This document shows positions 4,334-56,951 of a stretch of 64,000 bases of DNA, in pieces; positions within the stretch are counted from its first letter, which is position 1; the number at the start of each line of letters is the position of its first letter. Origin of the DNA: Candidatus Scalindua sp. GTDB lineage: Bacteria > Planctomycetota > Brocadiia > Brocadiales > Scalinduaceae. The position numbers were made by a program, and so were the translations under genes. Under the pieces are notes generated by a model. That model worked only from the letters and a program-made list of their open reading frames with translations. It ran no database searches and was not told where the DNA came from. The stretch lies in the NCBI GenBank assembly GCA_021776915.1, contig JAIQZU010000034.1:1-64000 (forward strand), read 5' to 3'.

Positions 4334-4766
4334 GGCTTTGTTCAACAAGTTTTTTTGCCGATTTTTTCAACTTATTAATTAACATTTCATAGCCTGCCTC
4401 ATCTCTCAACCCATCCAGATCGCTGTCATTCTCCAGATGCCTTATGTCGTTATAGCCTAAATTTATTGCTATACCTAAAGATCCCAGTGATTTATCAACA
4501 CTTCCCAACAATGAATAACTGCATGCAAGATTATAATGAACTAATGGATCACAGGGTTTAAGTTTCGATAACTTCACGTCTACCCTTAGCCCCTTCTCGT
4601 ACATCCCATTAGCAGTATATAAATTGCCAAGGAACATCAGGCACTCGGCATAGGCCGGATATATTTCGAGAACACCTTCCAAAAACCAGATCTCAAATTC
4701 ATCATCAGTTTTTCGGAATTCCGGTGTCTTCAAATCAAACTTATATTCTGGAATTCTCAATGTCAT
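4323..4766 (-). CDS. TPR-repeat protein, small cytoplasmic
   Basis: 147-aa product without signal peptide. About two to three tetratricopeptide-like helices are visible: YAECLMFLGNLYTANGMYEKGL, then PLVHYNLACSYSLLGSVDKSL, then LGYNDIRHLENDSDLDGLRD. The last block resembles the C-terminal half repeat common in planctomycete TPR proteins. Such modules bind partner proteins. Partner and role are unknown. It is convergent with coaX and transcribed alone. The reading frame is clean and matches a known fold, so I regard it as real. Confidence 0.8.
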   Translation of the reverse strand: MTLRIPEYKFDLKTPEFRKTDDEFEIWFLEGVLEIYPAYAECLMFLGNLYTANGMYEKGLRVDVKLSKLKPCDPLVHYNLACSYSLLGSVDKSLGSLGIAINLGYNDIRHLENDSDLDGLRDEAGYEMLINKLKKSAKKLVEQSPMD

Positions 4767-4967
4767 TTTAATAAACGGCTATCTTGCTATAAAATAAACC
4801 GAAACTCGCTATTCAACTAATTTTAGTTTATTGTAAATTGATTTATTGTCAAGTATGATTTTTCAAGTTGATTGCCTATAGCGTTTGTGATCAATTTGTC
4901 ATTTTTTATTTTGATAATTACTTGTTAATAGATTAGGATACATGCCTAACCCAGCCAAGCTGGAAAA

Positions 4968-5079
4968 TCCGAAATCCTAAGCACGAAATTCGAAACAAAT
5001 ACAAATTTTCAAATGTTCAAAACTTTTTATTTTGGTCATTCGATATTGTTTCGGATTTCGACATTCGAATTTCGAATTT
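4968..5079. repeat. Dispersed palindromic AT-rich repeat (GAAATTCGAAACAAAT family), copy A
   Basis: Contains GCACGAAATTCGAAACAAAT, a middle with TTTCAAATGTTCAAAAC, and a mirrored arm GTTTCGGATTTCGACATTCG. Together these make an imperfect long palindrome. A related copy lies at 63508-63638 beside pta. The rest of the 4767-5133 gap is AT-rich and shows no gene. Confidence 0.75.
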
Positions 5080-5133
5080 ATTTTTTGTCAAAAAAAGCAA
5101 GAAATTGTTACCTTATAGAATATGGGTTTATAA

Positions 5134-5757
5134 ATGTCTAAGTTTTATCCAATACATTTAGATGTTAAAGATAAGAAATGCGTTATTGTTGGAGGCGGGA
5201 AGGTGGCATACCGGAAGGTATGCAGCTTGAAAGAGGCGGGCGCTGAAGTAGTTGTGGTCAGTCCTGAAATTTGCCCTGAAATTGCGGACAAGAAAGGCAT
5301 TGCCTTAATAAAAAAGAATTATGATGAGACTGTTTTAGATGGCGCCTTACTTGTTATTGCAGCAACGGATAACGAGGCAGTTAACAAAAAGGCGGCGTTG
5401 GATGCAGGGAAAAGGAACATAATTGTAAACGTGGTTGATCATCCGGAACTTTGCTCCTTTATTGTTCCTTCAACAATAAATAGAGGAGACCTTTGTATAA
5501 GTATTTCGACCGGAGGCGCAAGTCCCGCTGTTTCTAAAAGCGTTAGAGAGGAATTAGAGGATGTCTTTGGTACAGAATATGAAGAGTACCTGAATCTGCT
5601 GACTAAAATGCGCAGTATTGCAATGTCGGATATCAAGGACAGTGCTATACGCAGAAAGGCACTCCAGCGCCTGGCAGAAAAAGATATTCTGGATATTGTG
5701 AAGAACAAAGGAGTCAAGGAGGCAGAGGCAAAAATAAGGGAGATCATGTTTGAGTGA
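5134..5757 (+). CDS. Precorrin-2 dehydrogenase / sirohydrochlorin ferrochelatase (CysG N-terminal/Met8 type)
   Basis: Catalyses NAD-dependent oxidation of precorrin-2 and probably iron insertion to give siroheme. The 207-aa product lacks the CysG methyltransferase half, so it is of the stand-alone Met8/CysG-N type. A Rossmann GGGKVAYRK motif starts near residue 20 (VIVGGGKVA). The conserved VNVVDHPELCSFIVPSTI and ISISTGGASPAVSK motifs follow. The siroheme product is exactly the cofactor needed by the sulfite reductase-like gene 130 bp downstream, which supports a joint role. The ATG at 5134 matches the usual N-terminus (FYPIHLDVKDKKC). Confidence 0.92.
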   Translation: MSKFYPIHLDVKDKKCVIVGGGKVAYRKVCSLKEAGAEVVVVSPEICPEIADKKGIALIKKNYDETVLDGALLVIAATDNEAVNKKAALDAGKRNIIVNVVDHPELCSFIVPSTINRGDLCISISTGGASPAVSKSVREELEDVFGTEYEEYLNLLTKMRSIAMSDIKDSAIRRKALQRLAEKDILDIVKNKGVKEAEAKIREIMFE

Positions 5758-5887
5758 GGTTGAATTACCTCTCTCAAGGCTTTTTCTGCTTGAAACATTT
5801 CTCCTTCAGTGATAACATGAAATCCGACTAATTTTATAATCTTTTTAAACAAAACGTACTATTTATTATAGTCTTAAGGAGTAATCT

Positions 5888-6778
5888 ATGTCTAAAAATA
5901 CGGATGCCGGAAAAATTGACTTTAATGAATTGAAATCCGGCGGGTTTATAAAACAGAACCAGAAAGACCTTTTTACGGTTCGTCTAAGGGTGCCGGGAGG
6001 CAGACTTGACGTCGATAAGATGGCCAAGATTGCGGCAGTCGCTAAAAAATACAGCAAAATGGGTTATTGCCACCTTAGTTTCAGACAATCAGTTGAAATT
6101 ATTGGTGTACACATAGATGATTTTGATGCAGCGGTAAAAGAATTGGCAGCGTTCGGGCAACCAATAGCGTCCTGTGGTCCCAGAATCCGTGTTCCGACAG
6201 CCTGTGGCGGCAATGAATATAATCCTAATGGGATTATGGACGCCCAGAAAAAGGCGCTGGAAGTAGACAAAGTGCTTTTTGGTACAACCTGTCATCATAA
6301 ATTCAAAATTTCATTTTCTGCCTGTCCAATAGACTGCGCCAGGACCAGAGGAATGGATTTAGGGTTTCAGGGCATGGTGGAGCCGCATTGGGAGGACGAC
6401 CCATGTACCGGATGTACTCTGTGTGAAAAGGCGTGTCTGGAAGGAGCTATAGTATCTGATGAAGATGGAAAGCCTATCTTTTACAGGGAAAAATGCGTAT
6501 ATTGCGGAGACTGTATAAAGGCATGCCCTACAGATGCGTGGACCCCAAAGCGAAAAGGCTGGGCTGTCCGTGCAGGCGGAAAACATGGGAGGCATCCAAG
6601 GACGGCAGATAATATTATGCTGTTTCTGCCGGATGAAAAGGTGCTGGACTTTATTAGCAAGACCGTCGAATGGTATAATGCAAATGGCACGAAAGGGGAG
6701 AGGATCGGAACAACTTTTGACCGTGTCGGAGTGGAAAAATACAAAGAAGAGGTTGCGCGTCCTTTTATTACAGATTAG
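5888..6778 (+). CDS. Small siroheme sulfite/nitrite reductase-like protein with 2x[4Fe-4S] ferredoxin domain
   Basis: Probably reduces sulfite to sulfide, or a related siroheme reaction. The 296-aa protein has the half-ferredoxin-like NIR/SIR N-terminus (TVRLRVPGGRLDVDKMAKIA), the siroheme/4Fe-4S part with C106 (PTACGGNEYN) and C146-x3-C150 (SACPIDC), and two ferredoxin clusters: C173xxCxxCxxxC183 and C203xxCxxCxxxC213. This matches small DsrAB-like, AsrC-like proteins rather than full-length CysI. Oddity: the usual C-x5-C that completes the siroheme-coupled cluster is not seen; only C106 is present, with C96 and C135 nearby. SD TTAAGGAG precedes the ATG. The next ORF starts at the base after the stop. 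Confidence 0.85.
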   Translation: MSKNTDAGKIDFNELKSGGFIKQNQKDLFTVRLRVPGGRLDVDKMAKIAAVAKKYSKMGYCHLSFRQSVEIIGVHIDDFDAAVKELAAFGQPIASCGPRIRVPTACGGNEYNPNGIMDAQKKALEVDKVLFGTTCHHKFKISFSACPIDCARTRGMDLGFQGMVEPHWEDDPCTGCTLCEKACLEGAIVSDEDGKPIFYREKCVYCGDCIKACPTDAWTPKRKGWAVRAGGKHGRHPRTADNIMLFLPDEKVLDFISKTVEWYNANGTKGERIGTTFDRVGVEKYKEEVARPFITD

Positions 6779-7195
6779 ATGGAAGAGAAAAAATTTATAC
6801 TATTTCTGCATAGTGGTAATTACGACAAATTATATCAGGCAGTAATGCTGGCTATTACATCAGCCTCTATGGGGAATAAGGTCTACATTTTTTTATTCTT
6901 TTGGGCTTTAAGGAAGTTTGTAACTGATAAGATAGATGTTATTGAATTTCCCGACGGAATGCATGAGGAAGATAAACGCCTGCTAGGAGCCGTACCACAG
7001 GGGCAGCCGGACATGCTGAAGGAATTACTGAGTGAAGTAAGCAAGATGGGCAACCTGGAGATCTATGCATGCAGTGGTGCTGTAAAGTTAATGGAGCTAG
7101 ATGAAGAGTTGGTAAAAAGTAAGGTCAAAGAGATTATAGGACTGCCGACAATGTTAAAGATGGCGGAAGGCGCAGAAACCCAACTCTTTATTTAG
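6779..7195 (+). CDS. DsrE/DsrF-like sulfur-transfer family protein
   Basis: 138-aa protein of the DsrE/DsrF/DrsH-like fold, small proteins that carry persulfide sulfur on a cysteine. Visible: the N-terminal beta strand FILFLHSGNYDKLYQAVMLA, the hydrophobic VYIFLFFWAL typical of the DrsE-like peroxiredoxin group, and a conserved cysteine C98 in EIYACSGAVKLM. Start is the ATG immediately after the reductase stop (no gap), so it is translationally linked. Together with TusA and sulfite reductase it suggests a relay for sulfane sulfur. The direction (assimilation or oxidation) cannot be read from sequence. Confidence 0.85.
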   Translation: MEEKKFILFLHSGNYDKLYQAVMLAITSASMGNKVYIFLFFWALRKFVTDKIDVIEFPDGMHEEDKRLLGAVPQGQPDMLKELLSEVSKMGNLEIYACSGAVKLMELDEELVKSKVKEIIGLPTMLKMAEGAETQLFI

Positions 7196-48427: not shown

Positions 48428-48523
48428 CATTTTCTCTCACTACGAAAGCTAAACTAGTTTTTCATTGTTTTGTTATGAACTGCTTAAACAATGAATAATT
48501 TCCCTCTCAATCCTACCATAATG

Positions 48524-48551
48524 GGTATTATAGTCCGTGGATTTATATTCA
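48524..48551 (+). promoter_or_regulatory. C-box: controller-protein operator upstream of the C gene
   Basis: Two pseudo-symmetric half-sites flank CGTG: ATTATAGTC and GATTTATATTC. The 12-mer TTATAGTCCGTG and the 15-bp spacing of the TATAGT-like cores (48529 and 48544) are those of the canonical controller operators of C-regulated type II systems (for example Esp1396I). It ends 23 bp before the GTG of the controller-like gene. Confidence 0.8.
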
Positions 48552-48573
48552 CCAATTAATTAAGCTGCTTTTT

Positions 48574-48810
48574 GTGAAGAAATTCAAAAACAATGCTGGC
48601 CTTTTAAAACTTGGCTCAAATATTAGAAAACAAAGAAATAAATTGGAAATGACCCAAGAAAGTCTTTCTTTTGAAGCAGGACTTGATAGGTCATACATTG
48701 GTGGGGCGGAAAGAGGTGAAAGAAATTTAAGTATTTTGACACTATCTAAAATTGCAAAATGCTTAAAGTGCGATATTTCAACGCTGACAAAGGGAATACC
48801 AAATGAATGA
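48574..48810 (+). CDS. XRE-family controller (C) protein of a restriction-modification-type module
   Basis: 78-aa helix-turn-helix protein: LGSNIRKQRNKLEMTQESLS, FEAGLDRSYIGGAERGERNL, SILTLSKIAKCLKCDISTL. Length and the motif LDRSYI-G-ERG-RN-S match controller proteins of type II restriction systems, which bind C-boxes to time nuclease expression. GTG start at 48574. The operator at 48524-48551 supports autoregulation. It overlaps the next ORF by 8 nt. Confidence 0.88.
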   Translation: MKKFKNNAGLLKLGSNIRKQRNKLEMTQESLSFEAGLDRSYIGGAERGERNLSILTLSKIAKCLKCDISTLTKGIPNE

Positions 48811-49015
48811 TAAAGAACTGACAAATTTAAGTACGAAAATATTAGAGTACTGTAACAAATTTGACATTCCATTAGAATTGCTTTTTGAATTTTACTCTGT
48901 GTCGTCAGATGCAGATTTAATTTCAGCTTGTGAAAAGGATTGGCGGTATTGTATCCCAAAAGATATTGCAGTAAATGAATTCATTCCACAAACTCAAAAT
49001 AAAATTGCTGCATGA
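48803..49015 (+). CDS. Hypothetical 70-aa protein between controller and nuclease
   Basis: 70 aa, MNDKELTNLSTKILEYCNKF, followed by IPLELLFEFYSVSSDADLIS and a C-terminal NEFIPQTQNKIAA. Acidic and alpha-helical by eye; no recognised domain. It overlaps the controller by 8 nt and the nuclease by 4 nt, so it is part of the operon and likely translated. It could be a nuclease subunit or antidote (inference). Confidence 0.65.
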   Translation: MNDKELTNLSTKILEYCNKFDIPLELLFEFYSVSSDADLISACEKDWRYCIPKDIAVNEFIPQTQNKIAA

Positions 49016-49869
49016 ACATGATTGAATTTTACAAAAGACCTTGGAGAAATCATTTTGAAACTTTGCTAGCAAAGACAACTAACGAATTAATAATTACATC
49101 ACCATACATCAAAAAAGCAGAAGCAGAATTCATTTGTGATAGTTTTTCATCTCGGAAAATTTCAGACAAAATAAATTTCACGCTACTTACTGATTTGCGT
49201 TCCCAAAGTATTCTTGATAATTCACTTGATATTGAAGCTCTGCAATTATTTCAAAGCAGAATTCAGAAATTTGAATTGGTTACTTTACCGCGGTTACATG
49301 CTAAAGTTTATTTGTTTGATAATTCTTATGCTGTTATTGGTTCATCAAACTTAACTCCTTCTGGTTTTGAATACAATTATGAATACAATGTTGGGTTCAG
49401 AGAGAAAAAGTATGTTCAAAAAATAAAATCAGATATTTCTGAGTACTCTACTTTTGGAAGTAAGGTTGAAAAAGAAAAAGTAGATGAACTTTCATCTGTT
49501 GCTAAAGAAGTAAAAGAGGAATATCAAGAAGTCATAAAGCCAGCAACATCTGCAATCAGAAAAAGATTTAATGAAACTTTAAAGAAAGCAGATGTAAAAT
49601 TTACTGAAGCATTAGTTGGTAAGAAAACAGCATATTCAATTTTTAAAGAAGCTGTAATTTATTGTTTGACTAAAGAACCGCTATCGACAAAAGATTTGCA
49701 AGCAAGGGTTCAATTTATGCTACCTGATCTATGCGTTGATGTTGAATTGATAATTAACGGACAGAAATTTGGAAAGGTTTGGAAACATCAAGTTAGAACA
49801 GTCCTGAATGACTTGAGGAGAAGAGGGAATTTGAAAGCAATAAATAAAATTTGGAGATTTGAAAAATAA
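49012..49869 (+). CDS. PLD-superfamily nuclease, probable restriction endonuclease
   Basis: 285 aa. One HKD motif with full catalytic set: H96-x-K98-x4-D103-x6-G110-S111-x-N113 (LHAKVYLFDNSYAVIGSSNL). Single-HKD nucleases of the BfiI/NgoFVII restriction type dimerise to form one active site. The C-terminal half (about 150-285) has no clear domain but ends in a wHTH-like segment KVWKHQVRTVLNDLRRRGNL. Overlaps the preceding ORF by 4 nt. Codon use is more AT-rich than the core genes, suggesting transfer. Confidence 0.82.
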   Translation: MNMIEFYKRPWRNHFETLLAKTTNELIITSPYIKKAEAEFICDSFSSRKISDKINFTLLTDLRSQSILDNSLDIEALQLFQSRIQKFELVTLPRLHAKVYLFDNSYAVIGSSNLTPSGFEYNYEYNVGFREKKYVQKIKSDISEYSTFGSKVEKEKVDELSSVAKEVKEEYQEVIKPATSAIRKRFNETLKKADVKFTEALVGKKTAYSIFKEAVIYCLTKEPLSTKDLQARVQFMLPDLCVDVELIINGQKFGKVWKHQVRTVLNDLRRRGNLKAINKIWRFEK

Positions 49870-49881
49870 ATCGAAATAAAA

Positions 49882-50199
49882 ATGGCAACACAAGGAAGTA
49901 TCGCAATTTGGAATTACTCAAAATTAGTTTCAAAATTTCCAGAGATTGAAAATAATGCTTCTCTCAAAGAAATTATTGGAGGAGATATTCATCCTAATCC
50001 ATTTAATAAAGGTGAGCAATTACTCATTTCATATGATGGTGATAATTTAAACTCACCCACAGGATATTACCCAGATTATGAACCTGAAAATTGGGTTCGT
50101 TCTTTTGATTTAAAATCTTTACAAAAGAAAAAAGCAATTCAACTTCTCAAATTCTTAAATGAAAAATGTCTTGTAGCTGATTGGTGTATTTGGGACTAA
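49882..50199 (+). CDS. Hypothetical 105-aa acidic protein of the restriction-like module
   Basis: 105 aa, MATQGSIAIWNYSKLVSKFP ... GGDIHPNPFNKGEQLLISYD ... WVRSFDLKSLQKKKAIQLLK ... LVADWCIWD. Rich in aromatic and acidic residues; no family recognised. It starts 12 bp after the nuclease and ends 4 bp into the convergent truncated methylase. It may be a small partner or immunity protein (inference). Confidence 0.6.
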   Translation: MATQGSIAIWNYSKLVSKFPEIENNASLKEIIGGDIHPNPFNKGEQLLISYDGDNLNSPTGYYPDYEPENWVRSFDLKSLQKKKAIQLLKFLNEKCLVADWCIWD

Positions 50200-50672
50200 G
50201 TGGTTTGCTTTGGTTGCATTGAAAATTTGTCCCCATAACCCCAGTACATATTCTGGGTATTCATAATACCACTGTATGAGGTTCGGTTTAGATAATACCA
50301 TCGACCTGCCCTATCCAAATCGTTTAGCGGAACAAATTCATTTTTAAAAAAACCATGCAATTCTTTTGATGCTGGCAAAGGATTGCCGTTTTCAACACCA
50401 TCAATTAATGAGGGGGGAATCCTGCAACTATTATCGTTTTGTACTTTTAAAAAATTAATTAATTCATCAGGATTATCTCTAATAGCTAAATATACATTTA
50501 CTAAATCATTATCCAGGTCATTCAATTGATTATAGATAGCCTTATTCTTTGCAAAGAATATGCTTCCTCCACCTGCAAAGGGTTCTATGTAATGATTATG
50601 AATAGGAACATGCTCTAAAATGAGTTTTCTCGCATAAAACTTTCCTCCTGCATACCTAAACGGACTGTTCAT
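50196..50672 (-). pseudogene. 3'-truncated D12-class DNA adenine methyltransferase
   Basis: N-terminal two thirds of a Dam/DpnII-type N6-adenine methylase. SPFRYAGGK (SAM-binding FxGGK motif) is near the start and HYIEPFAGGGSIFFAK is motif I. GRWYYLNRTSYSGIMN precedes the catalytic region, but the frame stops at YGDKFSMQPKQTT before motif IV (DPPY). No methylase continuation is seen in any frame downstream. The start is probably ATG 50672 (upstream ATGs at 50690 and 50711 fall inside the operator-like site). As it stands it should be inactive. Confidence 0.82.
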
Positions 50673-50687
50673 GGCATGTGTATTTCT

Positions 50688-50720
50688 CATGATGGGTATT
50701 ATAGTACTCATGCTATAGTT
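50688..50720 (-). promoter_or_regulatory. Second C-box-like site in front of the methylase
   Basis: Shares 17 of 18 bases (CATGATGGGTATTATAGT) with 48517-48534 in front of the controller gene, and carries a second TATAGT core 14 bp further (50700 and 50714). On the minus strand it sits just before the methylase start, as operators do at M promoters in controller-regulated systems. Confidence 0.68.
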
Positions 50721-50771
50721 GTCAAATTAAATTTTTCTGCACTTATCTGCGAAAATCAGCACTCTATTAAA

Positions 50772-52457
50772 TTACCCCCTCGTTAACTGCCTGTATTTGA
50801 TCCGATGCGGTTGCTCGGCGGCCTTTCCGAGCCTCTTTTTTCTGTCTGCTTCGTATTCTGAAAAGTTACCTTCAAACCACCTGACGGTGCTGTCTCCCTC
50901 AAAGGCAAGTATATGACTGGCGATGCGGTCGAGAAACCATCGGTCGTGAGAAATGATGACTGCACATCCTCCAAAATGATCCAGGGCCTCTTCCAGGGCG
51001 CGCATGGTGTTGACGTCCAGATCGTTTGTGGGTTCGTCCAGAAGCAATACATTGGCGCCGTCCTTGAGCATACATGCAAGGTGAACACGGTTACGCTCTC
51101 CGCCTGAAAGCACGTTTACCTTCTTCTGCTGGTCTGACCCGGAAAAATTAAAACGTGCAACGTATGCACGGGAGTTTACTTCGTGATTTCCGAGTTCAAT
51201 CGAGTCCCTGCCTCCGGAAACAATCTCCCATATTGTCTTTTTCGGATCGAGTGTATCGCGTTCCTGATCGACGTAGGCAAGCTTGGTAGTGTCGCCAACC
51301 TTAAGTGTGCCGGAATCAGGCTTTTCCATACCGGTAATCATTTTAAAGAGTGTCGTCTTCCCGGCGCCGTTCGGGCCTATTATGCCGACAATACCACCAG
51401 CAGGAAGAGAGAATGACATACCCTCAAAGAGGAGGCGGTCTCCATACCCCTTGCTGACATTTTCCGCTTCAATCACTACTGTTCCAAGGCGCGGTCCGGG
51501 CGGGATATACAACTCAAGGTCTTTTTCCTCTTTTGCAGAGTCCTGATTTAAGAGAGATTCGTAGGAATTAATGCGCGCCTTTGCCTTAGCATGGCGTCCT
51601 TTAGTGGACATGTGAATCCATTCCAGTTCCCGCTGCAGGGTTTTCTGCCGTTCCGTTTCACTCTTCTCTTCCTGTTTGAGTCGATTCTGTTTCTGTTCAA
51701 GCCAGGAAGAGTAGTTGCCCTTCCAGGGGACACCCATCCCCCGATCAAGCTCTAAAATCCAGCCGGCTACATTGTCCAGGAAATAACGGTCGTGCGTTAT
51801 GGCAATCACAGTACCTGCATACTGCTGAAGATGATGTTCCAGCCATGCCACGGTTTCGGCATCAAGATGATTGGTAGGTTCGTCCAGAAGCAGGATATCA
51901 GGTTTCTGTAATAAAAGCCTGCACAATGCCACGCGTCTTTTTTCACCTCCGGAAATAACCTTAATTTGTGTATCTCCGGGAGGACAGCGCAGTGCATCCA
52001 TGGCCATTTCCAGACGTGACTCAATATCCCAGGCGTTCTGTTTCTCGATCTCTTCCTGCAGCTCACCCTGGCGTTCCAGAAGTTTATTCATTTCGTCATC
52101 AGACACGGGTTCGGCAAATTTCTCGCTGATTTCGTTGTATTCCTTGACGATATCAACGATTTCCTGCAGACCTTCTTCCACAACGGCCTTGACGGTTTTC
52201 TCTGAATCAACTAGCGGCTCCTGTTCCAGATACCCTACGGTGTATCCTTCAGAGAGTGAGGCATCTCCATTAAATTCCTTATCAACACCCGCCATAATAC
52301 GCAAAAGCGAACTCTTCCCTGATCCGTTTAATCCCAGGACGCCTATTTTAGCGCCATAAAAATATGAGAGGGATATATCCTTAATCACGGTTTTCTTCTC
52401 GTAAGATTTACTGACCTTCATCATTGAATATATAATCTTTTCAGACGTATTGCTCAT
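50772..52457 (-). CDS. ettA: ABC-F protein EttA (energy-dependent translational throttle)
   Basis: 561-aa ABC-F ATPase acting at the ribosomal E site, gating the first steps of elongation by ADP/ATP ratio. Two ATP cassettes: Walker A GLNGSGKSS and GPNGAGKTT, signatures SGGEKRRVAL and SGGERNRVHL, Walker B LLLDEPTNHLD and LLLDEPTNDLD. The PtIM linker and arm region (NRLKQEEKSETERQKTLQRE) lies between them. No transmembrane domain. Full-length. Confidence 0.94.
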   Translation of the reverse strand: MSNTSEKIIYSMMKVSKSYEKKTVIKDISLSYFYGAKIGVLGLNGSGKSSLLRIMAGVDKEFNGDASLSEGYTVGYLEQEPLVDSEKTVKAVVEEGLQEIVDIVKEYNEISEKFAEPVSDDEMNKLLERQGELQEEIEKQNAWDIESRLEMAMDALRCPPGDTQIKVISGGEKRRVALCRLLLQKPDILLLDEPTNHLDAETVAWLEHHLQQYAGTVIAITHDRYFLDNVAGWILELDRGMGVPWKGNYSSWLEQKQNRLKQEEKSETERQKTLQRELEWIHMSTKGRHAKAKARINSYESLLNQDSAKEEKDLELYIPPGPRLGTVVIEAENVSKGYGDRLLFEGMSFSLPAGGIVGIIGPNGAGKTTLFKMITGMEKPDSGTLKVGDTTKLAYVDQERDTLDPKKTIWEIVSGGRDSIELGNHEVNSRAYVARFNFSGSDQQKKVNVLSGGERNRVHLACMLKDGANVLLLDEPTNDLDVNTMRALEEALDHFGGCAVIISHDRWFLDRIASHILAFEGDSTVRWFEGNFSEYEADRKKRLGKAAEQPHRIKYRQLTRG

Positions 52458-55350: not shown

Positions 55351-55749
55351 ATGAAATATCAAACTTTTTTCAAGTGCTGGAAGAATTGGCAAGGGTTTAA
55401 GACTCCCGAAATTTCTGAGACGTGCAATGATGGTTTTAACGGGGTTTATGCATTTCGTATGAAAAATAAGTTTGGCAGATTAAAAGGAGAATCAAACGTT
55501 TTGTATATTGGTAAAGTAGAGCAGAATCTTGAAAGGAAGAGGTCTGGTATTTTGCACCGATTAATGAACTACAAACAAAACAATAAGGGGGCTTCAAATC
55601 GTTTAGATGATATAGCAGACAAATTTGGAGAGGAAGCAATTGAATATGCTTATGAAATCTGTGCAACCCCCCGTGATACCGAAAAGGCACTTTTAGATGA
55701 TTATTACAATACACACTTGGAATTCCCACCGCTTAATAGAAGCGCATGA
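55351..55749 (+). CDS. GIY-YIG-like nuclease family protein
   Basis: 132 aa. G31-V-Y33 (NGVYAFRMK) and L51-Y-I-G54 (VLYIGKVEQNLE) are the two strands of a GIY-YIG core, followed by Arg-containing helix LHRLMNY and a conserved-looking Glu111 (DTEKALLDDYYNTH) with terminal PPLNR. This matches small stand-alone GIY-YIG domain proteins. It starts with a strong GGAGGG and is followed after 53 bp by a PD-(D/E)XK gene, so it is likely part of a nuclease operon. Confidence 0.72.
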   Translation: MKYQTFFKCWKNWQGFKTPEISETCNDGFNGVYAFRMKNKFGRLKGESNVLYIGKVEQNLERKRSGILHRLMNYKQNNKGASNRLDDIADKFGEEAIEYAYEICATPRDTEKALLDDYYNTHLEFPPLNRSA

Positions 55750-55802
55750 GCAGTGAAAATTATTTGAAGTAGTAATGAACATAATGAAAGGATGTGATAA
55801 AG

Positions 55803-56951
55803 ATGGCAAAGTTACATTATCAGAGGTGGGTTGAGAAATTTAGTATAGACACATTTTCTTCAGAAGATTCAATGCGAGATTATCTTTTTTCAAACCCTGC
55901 ACTCATTTTTGAAGAAGATACTTGGGTAATCCCAATCGAGGAGGAAAAGTGTTTACCAGAATCGTCCTTTGATAATAAAAATTATGGCAGAGCAGATATA
56001 ATTCTTTGCCGTATATTTAAAGATAAAGAGGAAGTAAAAAGAAAAGAAGAACTATCTCTAGAAGAAATTGAGTTATGGATAGTTGAACTAAAGAAAAACG
56101 AGGTTAGCTATGAGAATGGGTTTAAACAGTTGTTTGATTATATGGCCGTAGTGAAAGAAGACGAAAAAATCCGAGAGAAAATTATAGGCGAAGTGATAAA
56201 CAAAGTTAAGGAACGTCTTGGTCTTTCGAGATTAAAACTTAAAGATTCAGATAAGTATCTCAGTGTGTTTGGAAGTTTAGTTGCTCCATCTTTCGGGTTC
56301 ATTGAAAGAACGACAGAATCTATTGGTGTAGGTGTAACGAAATACAAAGTCTATATAGATTTGAATAAAGTTTTAATAGATAAAGGAAAGATTGAAGAAG
56401 GTTTCACCTTAATAGATGTGGTCGATGCTGCCGGCAAGTTAGATTCTCCTTATTATATATCCCTGGTGAAGTTGATAAGGTTTAAAAGAGGGGATGAAAC
56501 AATAATTTATTCCGAAAATGTATTAGGAAGAAGAGCGACTGCTCAAGTTGCAAGGGTAGACCCTGTTGAATTGTTTCAGAATAATGCTATAAAAGAAGAT
56601 GAAAATTTCTATTTCAGGGACGACAAAGGTACAGTGCATAAAGAATTGGAATTCAGGGTTTTAAACAAAAGAGGGCCAAGCCATTCATTTATGATTAAGA
56701 TTAAATCGATCAAGGGTCATAATTCTATTCTCATTCCCAAGTGGGCAAAAGACCACTATGAATTTAAACACCAGGAACTTCCAATAGAATGCACAGTGAA
56801 AACTTGTAGCATAGCTCTTCATAATCTTTATGAAATTTACAAAGAAGATGAGTTGTTCAAGTACCACTGGAGTTTTGGAGAAAAGAACTTTATTAGAGAA
56901 AGAGAAGACAAGAGTCTTTCGGAGCTAAGGGAAGAACAACGCTTAAGATAA
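55803..56951 (+). CDS. PD-(D/E)XK nuclease-like protein
   Basis: 382 aa from ATG 55803 (GAAAGGA spaced correctly; a GTG at 55794 also opens the frame). The N-terminal nuclease core contains GRADIILC (D65), ELWIVELKK (E95-x-K97) and ENGFKQLFDYM (Q109, Y113), the D...ExK...QxxxY set of restriction-like DUF91/NucS/Shedu-type nucleases. A C-terminal region (about 180-382) has no recognised domain. Between GIY-YIG and HD genes; probably DNA-acting. Confidence 0.75.
   Translation: MAKLHYQRWVEKFSIDTFSSEDSMRDYLFSNPALIFEEDTWVIPIEEEKCLPESSFDNKNYGRADIILCRIFKDKEEVKRKEELSLEEIELWIVELKKNEVSYENGFKQLFDYMAVVKEDEKIREKIIGEVINKVKERLGLSRLKLKDSDKYLSVFGSLVAPSFGFIERTTESIGVGVTKYKVYIDLNKVLIDKGKIEEGFTLIDVVDAAGKLDSPYYISLVKLIRFKRGDETIIYSENVLGRRATAQVARVDPVELFQNNAIKEDENFYFRDDKGTVHKELEFRVLNKRGPSHSFMIKIKSIKGHNSILIPKWAKDHYEFKHQELPIECTVKTCSIALHNLYEIYKEDELFKYHWSFGEKNFIREREDKSLSELREEQRLR

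Follow-up and report, generated by a model that had tools for sequence, protein, structure and literature searches.

In controller-regulated type II restriction-modification (R-M) systems of the Esp1396I type, a controller (C) gene is combined with operators before C/R and M, the genes of the restriction enzyme (R) and the methylase (M) are convergent, and the M operator lies over the promoter. A different arrangement is known from Neisseria, where drg, encoding a GmeATC-specific (m6A-dependent) nuclease, is inserted at dam (PMC516771; PMC4269198). Aba4572I and CbaI (Chloroflexi PLD-wH) are candidate m6A-dependent type IV enzymes; in vitro activity could not be demonstrated for the PLD-wH enzymes, and one of them proved toxic in the absence of Dam (PMC11037411). 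An N-terminal PLD domain is also found in the type II enzymes NgoFVII and BfiI.

The locus reported here lies in a 64,000-nucleotide stretch of a Candidatus Scalindua genome (the window) and shares features with each of these systems. It has the C gene, the operators and the convergent R and M of Esp1396I-type systems, whose full layout is found in an intact related locus (L059) and whose gene order is found in another (L087), but in the window R is without its catalytic core and M without DPPY, and their place is taken by a PLD nuclease. As with drg, a nuclease gene occupies an adenine-methylase locus, the methylase is inactivated and the G+C content is lower than that of the host; unlike drg, the nuclease is of the PLD type, the target is a C-controlled R-M cassette and not a solitary dam, and a dependence on m6A is suggested by analogy. 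With Aba4572I and CbaI, the window enzyme shares an N-terminal PLD domain, a probable C-terminal winged-helix-like domain, relatives in Chloroflexota and the usual lack of a cognate methylase. However, its C-terminal domain is not recognisably DpnI_C and Mrr_N-like at best, and control by a C protein is new. The PLD domain is shared with NgoFVII and BfiI (PF09565, above the cut-off), whereas no type II-like C-terminal DNA-binding domain was recognised and no intact cognate methylase is present in the window. With slightly better than even confidence, we propose that a PLD nuclease was captured by a C-controlled operon, that R and M were broken and that the nuclease acts as a type IV-like enzyme on probably adenine-methylated DNA. 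The architectural and evolutionary part of this statement, taken alone, is held with high confidence.

The cassette and its controller region

The whole cassette (48430..50765, unstranded) is an insertion, with an FGE-sulfatase gene on one side and an ABC-F gene on the other. It is AT-rich, with a GC content of 0.318 versus 0.45-0.48 in the flanking genes. In congeners, the two flanking genes are mostly about 40 to 290 bp apart and the cassette is missing; in one of them (L032), about 880 bp with other sequence separate the two genes, again without the cassette. A duplicated ABC-F fragment occurs at this site in the same congener. The ABC-F gene adjoining the R-M cassette looks the same in L059 (7382-9067) and in the window (50772-52457), with the cassette on its 5' side in L059 and on its 3' side in the window. 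The ABC-F neighbourhood is a possible insertion hot spot. Elsewhere in the window (55351-56951), two ORFs stand in succession: a small one of 132 aa that resembles GIY-YIG nucleases, and one of 385 aa that contains a PD-(D/E)XK-like stretch. Neither has a Pfam match above the cut-off, and from their sequences they are possible further defence genes near the cassette.

The C gene is intact (48574..48810, + strand) and, by homology, encodes a 78-aa controller with a GTG start. The protein matches C.AhdI (1.5e-13), C.Esp1396I (1e-8) and the PADLOC family Control_protein (6e-17), and it is 62% identical to the C protein of L059. The earlier note had pointed to a pair of C-box-like sequences before the controller gene and the D12 methylase, as in true type II systems, and this observation holds. 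Box 1, CATAATGGGTATTATAGT (48517-48534), and box 2, CATGATGGGTATTATAGT (50688-50705), match at 17 of 18 positions, and no further copy with up to three mismatches occurs on either strand of the 64 kb. Box 1 and a second half-site form the predicted C-protein operator before the C gene (48517..48557, + strand), which is kept in L059 as AATGGGTATTATAGTCTGTGG. It resembles the Esp1396I operators, with their central TATA (PMC3758141). Operators ahead of both C and M, a feature of C-regulated type II systems, are therefore present in the window as in L059. The same note had considered that the repeats could be insertion boundaries. This reading, as well as that of target-site duplications, was rejected because the boxes lie inside the cassette, are conserved in L059 and are absent from the empty sites of the congeners. 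As judged from sequence, both boxes are C operators.

Remnants of the original R-M system

L059, from a genome of the same order as the window, carries a whole R-M system with the layout C→R→←M. Its C (6830-7117) and R (6070-6837; PADLOC family PDLC03516) genes are on the minus strand and its M gene (5138-6073), with DPPY present, is on the plus strand. R and M end tail to tail, an arrangement also seen in Acinetobacter plasmids, where a PDLC03516 R gene is paired with an M of this kind. The DNA alignment of the window with L059 consists of three blocks. The first (48520-48887) holds the operator, the C gene and the start of R, the second (48874-48995) is a late piece of R, and the third (50208-50711) comprises the first half of M and its operator. 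About 430 bp are missing from the middle of R in the window. The 70-aa ORF (48803..49015, + strand) is therefore an internally deleted R, in which the N-terminus is joined in frame to the late piece and the catalytic core is deleted, so that no intact restriction endonuclease of this family remains in the cassette. For this reason, the suggestion that the 70-aa protein restrains the nuclease, in the manner of an antitoxin, was abandoned. By these sequence comparisons, the PLD nuclease is not the original cognate enzyme of the window methylase; the original enzyme family is PDLC03516.

Between the second and third blocks lies a replacement block of 1,212 bp (48996..50207, + strand), whose counterpart in L059 is 562 bp long and contains the 3' ends of R and M. 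The block carries the PLD nuclease gene (49012..49869, + strand), which overlaps the stop of the R remnant and encodes a probable C-terminal winged helix, and an orphan 105-aa ORF (49882..50199, + strand). No relative of the latter was found in Pfam, NCBIfam, PADLOC, PHROGs, plasmids, viral contigs or 246 other genomes.

As in the drg arrangement, the nuclease locus inactivates a methylase, here with a breakpoint at 50208 relative to L059. The D12 adenine methylase (50196..50690, - strand) is truncated: its first 161 codons are homologous to full-length relatives up to SMQPK (window position about 50208) and are followed by QTT-stop. The match to PF02086 (7.5e-17) covers only profile positions 1-124 of 253, and the C-terminal half, comprising DPPY and about 145 aa, is lost, which bears out the statement of the earlier note that the methylase stops before DPPY. 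Its promoter, TTGACA-16-TATAAT (50691..50725, - strand), is recognised from the sequence and overlaps a C box that is also present in L059. Because of this overlap, the methylase most likely starts at 50690 and not at 50711, which would place the box in the promoter and not in the gene.

A second cognate methylase did not emerge: no further D12 methylase is clearly above the cut-off in the genome, and one further fragment barely reaches the cut-off together with its neighbours. Other DNA methylases are present in the host. An assembly error or a hidden full methylase was also rejected, as the search for a C-terminal D12 fragment gave nothing in 48-51 kb and nothing clear in the rest of the genome. 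The independent locus L002 described below argues against it as well, since the same arrangement in two unrelated assemblies makes an assembly error or a chimeric contig unlikely. A full-length methylase of the same family is encoded on a viral contig (L040, 3941-4981) among terminase- and portal-like genes, with no restriction enzyme recognised beside it.

A second locus with the same nuclease

The closest relative found of the window PLD, with 68% identity, is encoded in a Dehalococcoidia MAG (L002). This gene, too, comes after a C gene and a short ORF, the latter being what is left of the N-terminus of a PDLC03516 restriction enzyme (1.9e-9 over profile positions 2-36). The C protein of L002 is 34% identical to that of the window and 82% identical to that of L087, an intact C-R-M locus without PLD from another genome of the same class as L002. 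At the DNA level, L002 and L087 are 79.5% identical over 415 bp, with a sharp end at R codon 39, and the R stub is 83-87% identical to the R of L087. The PLD gene of L002 starts about 12 bp past the end of this homology. The homology between the window and L002 PLD genes begins at the start codon, which in the window is probably ATG 49018.

The scaffolds are related as ((window, L059), (L002, L087)), with the PLD gene in one member of each pair and intact R and M in the other. Since the same PLD stands behind different R stubs and each scaffold has a PLD-free intact relative, two captures are the simplest history that the sequences suggest.

A 92-aa ORF upstream of C in L002 (1333-1608) is an N-terminal fragment of an EcoRV-like enzyme (PF09233 1.6e-8, PDB EcoRV 1.8e-6), so that remnants of two different restriction enzymes lie on either side of one C gene. 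An EcoRV-type origin of the system was considered and rejected, as this fragment is found only in L002 and the M of the window pairs with PDLC03516 enzymes.

The PLD gene of L002 is interrupted by an IS3-type element and was therefore not kept there. Another explanation would be that the locus is a decaying defence cassette without present function, in which the window PLD is still open by chance. The broken R and M genes, the disruption of L002 next to an EcoRV remnant and the absence of the cassette from the congeners of the window host would fit this explanation. However, the window retains an intact C gene, two intact operators and an intact PLD active site (HxKx4D, SxN), and the same arrangement arose twice. 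In addition, pN is 0.19 and pS 0.78 between the window and L002 PLD genes; with synonymous sites saturated, this comparison of sequences shows constraint on the protein and not at this locus. Loss of function is therefore regarded as unlikely.

The PLD family and the proposed mode of action

The window PLD matches PLDc_2 (8e-14) and, above the cut-off, RE_NgoFVII (PF09565, 9e-9). H96, K98, N113 and E124 are invariant in 17 PLD relatives, and D103 is conserved at 90% or more. A winged helix is probable, from sequence, for the last 90 residues at the C-terminus: Mrr_N is detected in 4 of 13 members, with a best value of 1.6e-4 that is below the Pfam cut-off, and an hhalign comparison with DpnI_C yields a probability of 6%. 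A PDB profile search with the C-terminal domain gave nothing but matches to TAL effectors, which were short, repeat-like and taken as spurious. In L058, L079, L080 and L042, which are distant relatives sharing the PLD part, the winged helix is of the DpnI_C 'Dam-replacing' type (7.7e-26 to 4.7e-13); on sequence evidence, the two C-terminal types are not demonstrably homologous. These four solitary PLD-DpnI_C fusions (L058:6221-7030, L079:4408-5238, L080:4676-5506, L042:1087-1911) match the published PLD-wH candidate type IV architecture. A structure model of the window PLD, based on two sequences, has a pLDDT of 58 and of less than 50 at the C-terminus, and its Foldseek matches (NucT, Zucchini, PLDs and the NgoAVII R protein) do not go beyond a confirmation of the PLD fold.

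Eleven other full-length relatives (L019, L054-L057, L073-L078) are solitary, mostly amid housekeeping genes. No C gene, PDLC03516 R or methylase was recognised within their flanks of about 3-5 kb, which were judged by eye from ORF translations, and no relatives were found in phages and viral contigs. Because these eleven genes stand alone without a recognised methylase, the PLD, as read from its genomic contexts, needs no partner and no cognate methylase. Doing without a methylase sets this family apart from ordinary type II enzymes, and the paradox raised by the earlier note, that an active nuclease next to a broken methylase would be toxic, is thereby removed. Among the ways out that it had listed, action on foreign modified DNA has now gained the most support for the same reason, whereas restraint by the 70-aa protein has dropped out.

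Alternatively, the PLD could have replaced R with the same specificity in a hybrid type II system protected by M. In this view, M was broken at a later time, and the PLD is today inactive or unexpressed, or another methylase gives the protection. The resemblance of its PLD domain to NgoFVII enzymes would agree with this, as would the repeated capture in the same R-M family and the other methylases of the host, but one replacement block covers the ends of both genes, R and M, which points to a loss of M in the same event. The eleven relatives without a recognised methylase also speak against it, and no intact C-PLD-M locus was found in 1,994 genome look-ups and several collections, although one may exist elsewhere. 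This history is considered quite improbable.

Two of the solitary relatives have nuclease-like neighbours. In L073, an Mrr_cat-type endonuclease gene of 463 aa (4469-5860) lies 6 bp upstream of the PLD gene, and in L057, the gene of a 205-aa PD-(D/E)XK-nuclease-looking protein (5869-6486) overlaps the end of the PLD gene; from their sequences, these are possible two-nuclease pairs. It could be argued that the PLD cuts without specificity or serves in repair, or that it needs a second protein, for instance the 105-aa one, to act, and that its location in the cassette reflects a defence-gene hot spot only. The solitary relatives beside housekeeping genes, the Mrr_cat partner in L073 and the presence of the orphan 105-aa ORF can be cited for this. 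However, that the capture took place twice at the same position behind C suggests more than chance. Moreover, no relative of the 105-aa ORF was found beside any other PLD. Such a role is held to be very unlikely.

The capture by a C-controlled operon thus remains the preferred explanation. Its starting point was a convergent, controller-regulated type II cassette, C→R→←M, with operators before C and M. A block with the PLD gene was swapped in for the 3' ends of both R and M, and the catalytic core of R was lost as well. By its anatomy, the PLD would now be the enzyme of the C operon because C is intact, as are the two operators, and because the PLD gene overlaps the stop of the R remnant; transcription would presumably proceed from the C promoter. 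The enzyme is most likely type IV-like and would cut foreign, probably adenine-methylated DNA. This preference for methylated DNA can be proposed by analogy only, since there is no DpnI_C match, Mrr_N is below the cut-off and the structure model is poor. As there are other DNA methylases in the host, the PLD would have to ignore their marks. The dead methylase may be the condition for tolerating the PLD, as for drg/dam in Neisseria, and judging from Esp1396I-type systems, C control would hold the nuclease back at first and keep it limited when the genes arrive in a new cell. A generalisation is tentative and rated at somewhat below even chances: PLD-wH type IV nucleases may repeatedly take over C-regulated R-M operons, destroying R and M in one stroke and keeping the C timing switch.

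The two loci represent a twice-repeated case of an R-M system changing into its apparent opposite, with intact before-states in both lineages, and illustrate nuclease exchange under a C-protein switch. They allow a test of whether the spread of type IV-like enzymes proceeds by destroying the methylase that makes the mark under attack. If the proposed mode of action is true, the window would contain, to our knowledge, the first C-controlled type IV enzyme, and a self-methylating system would have become one that attacks methylated DNA.
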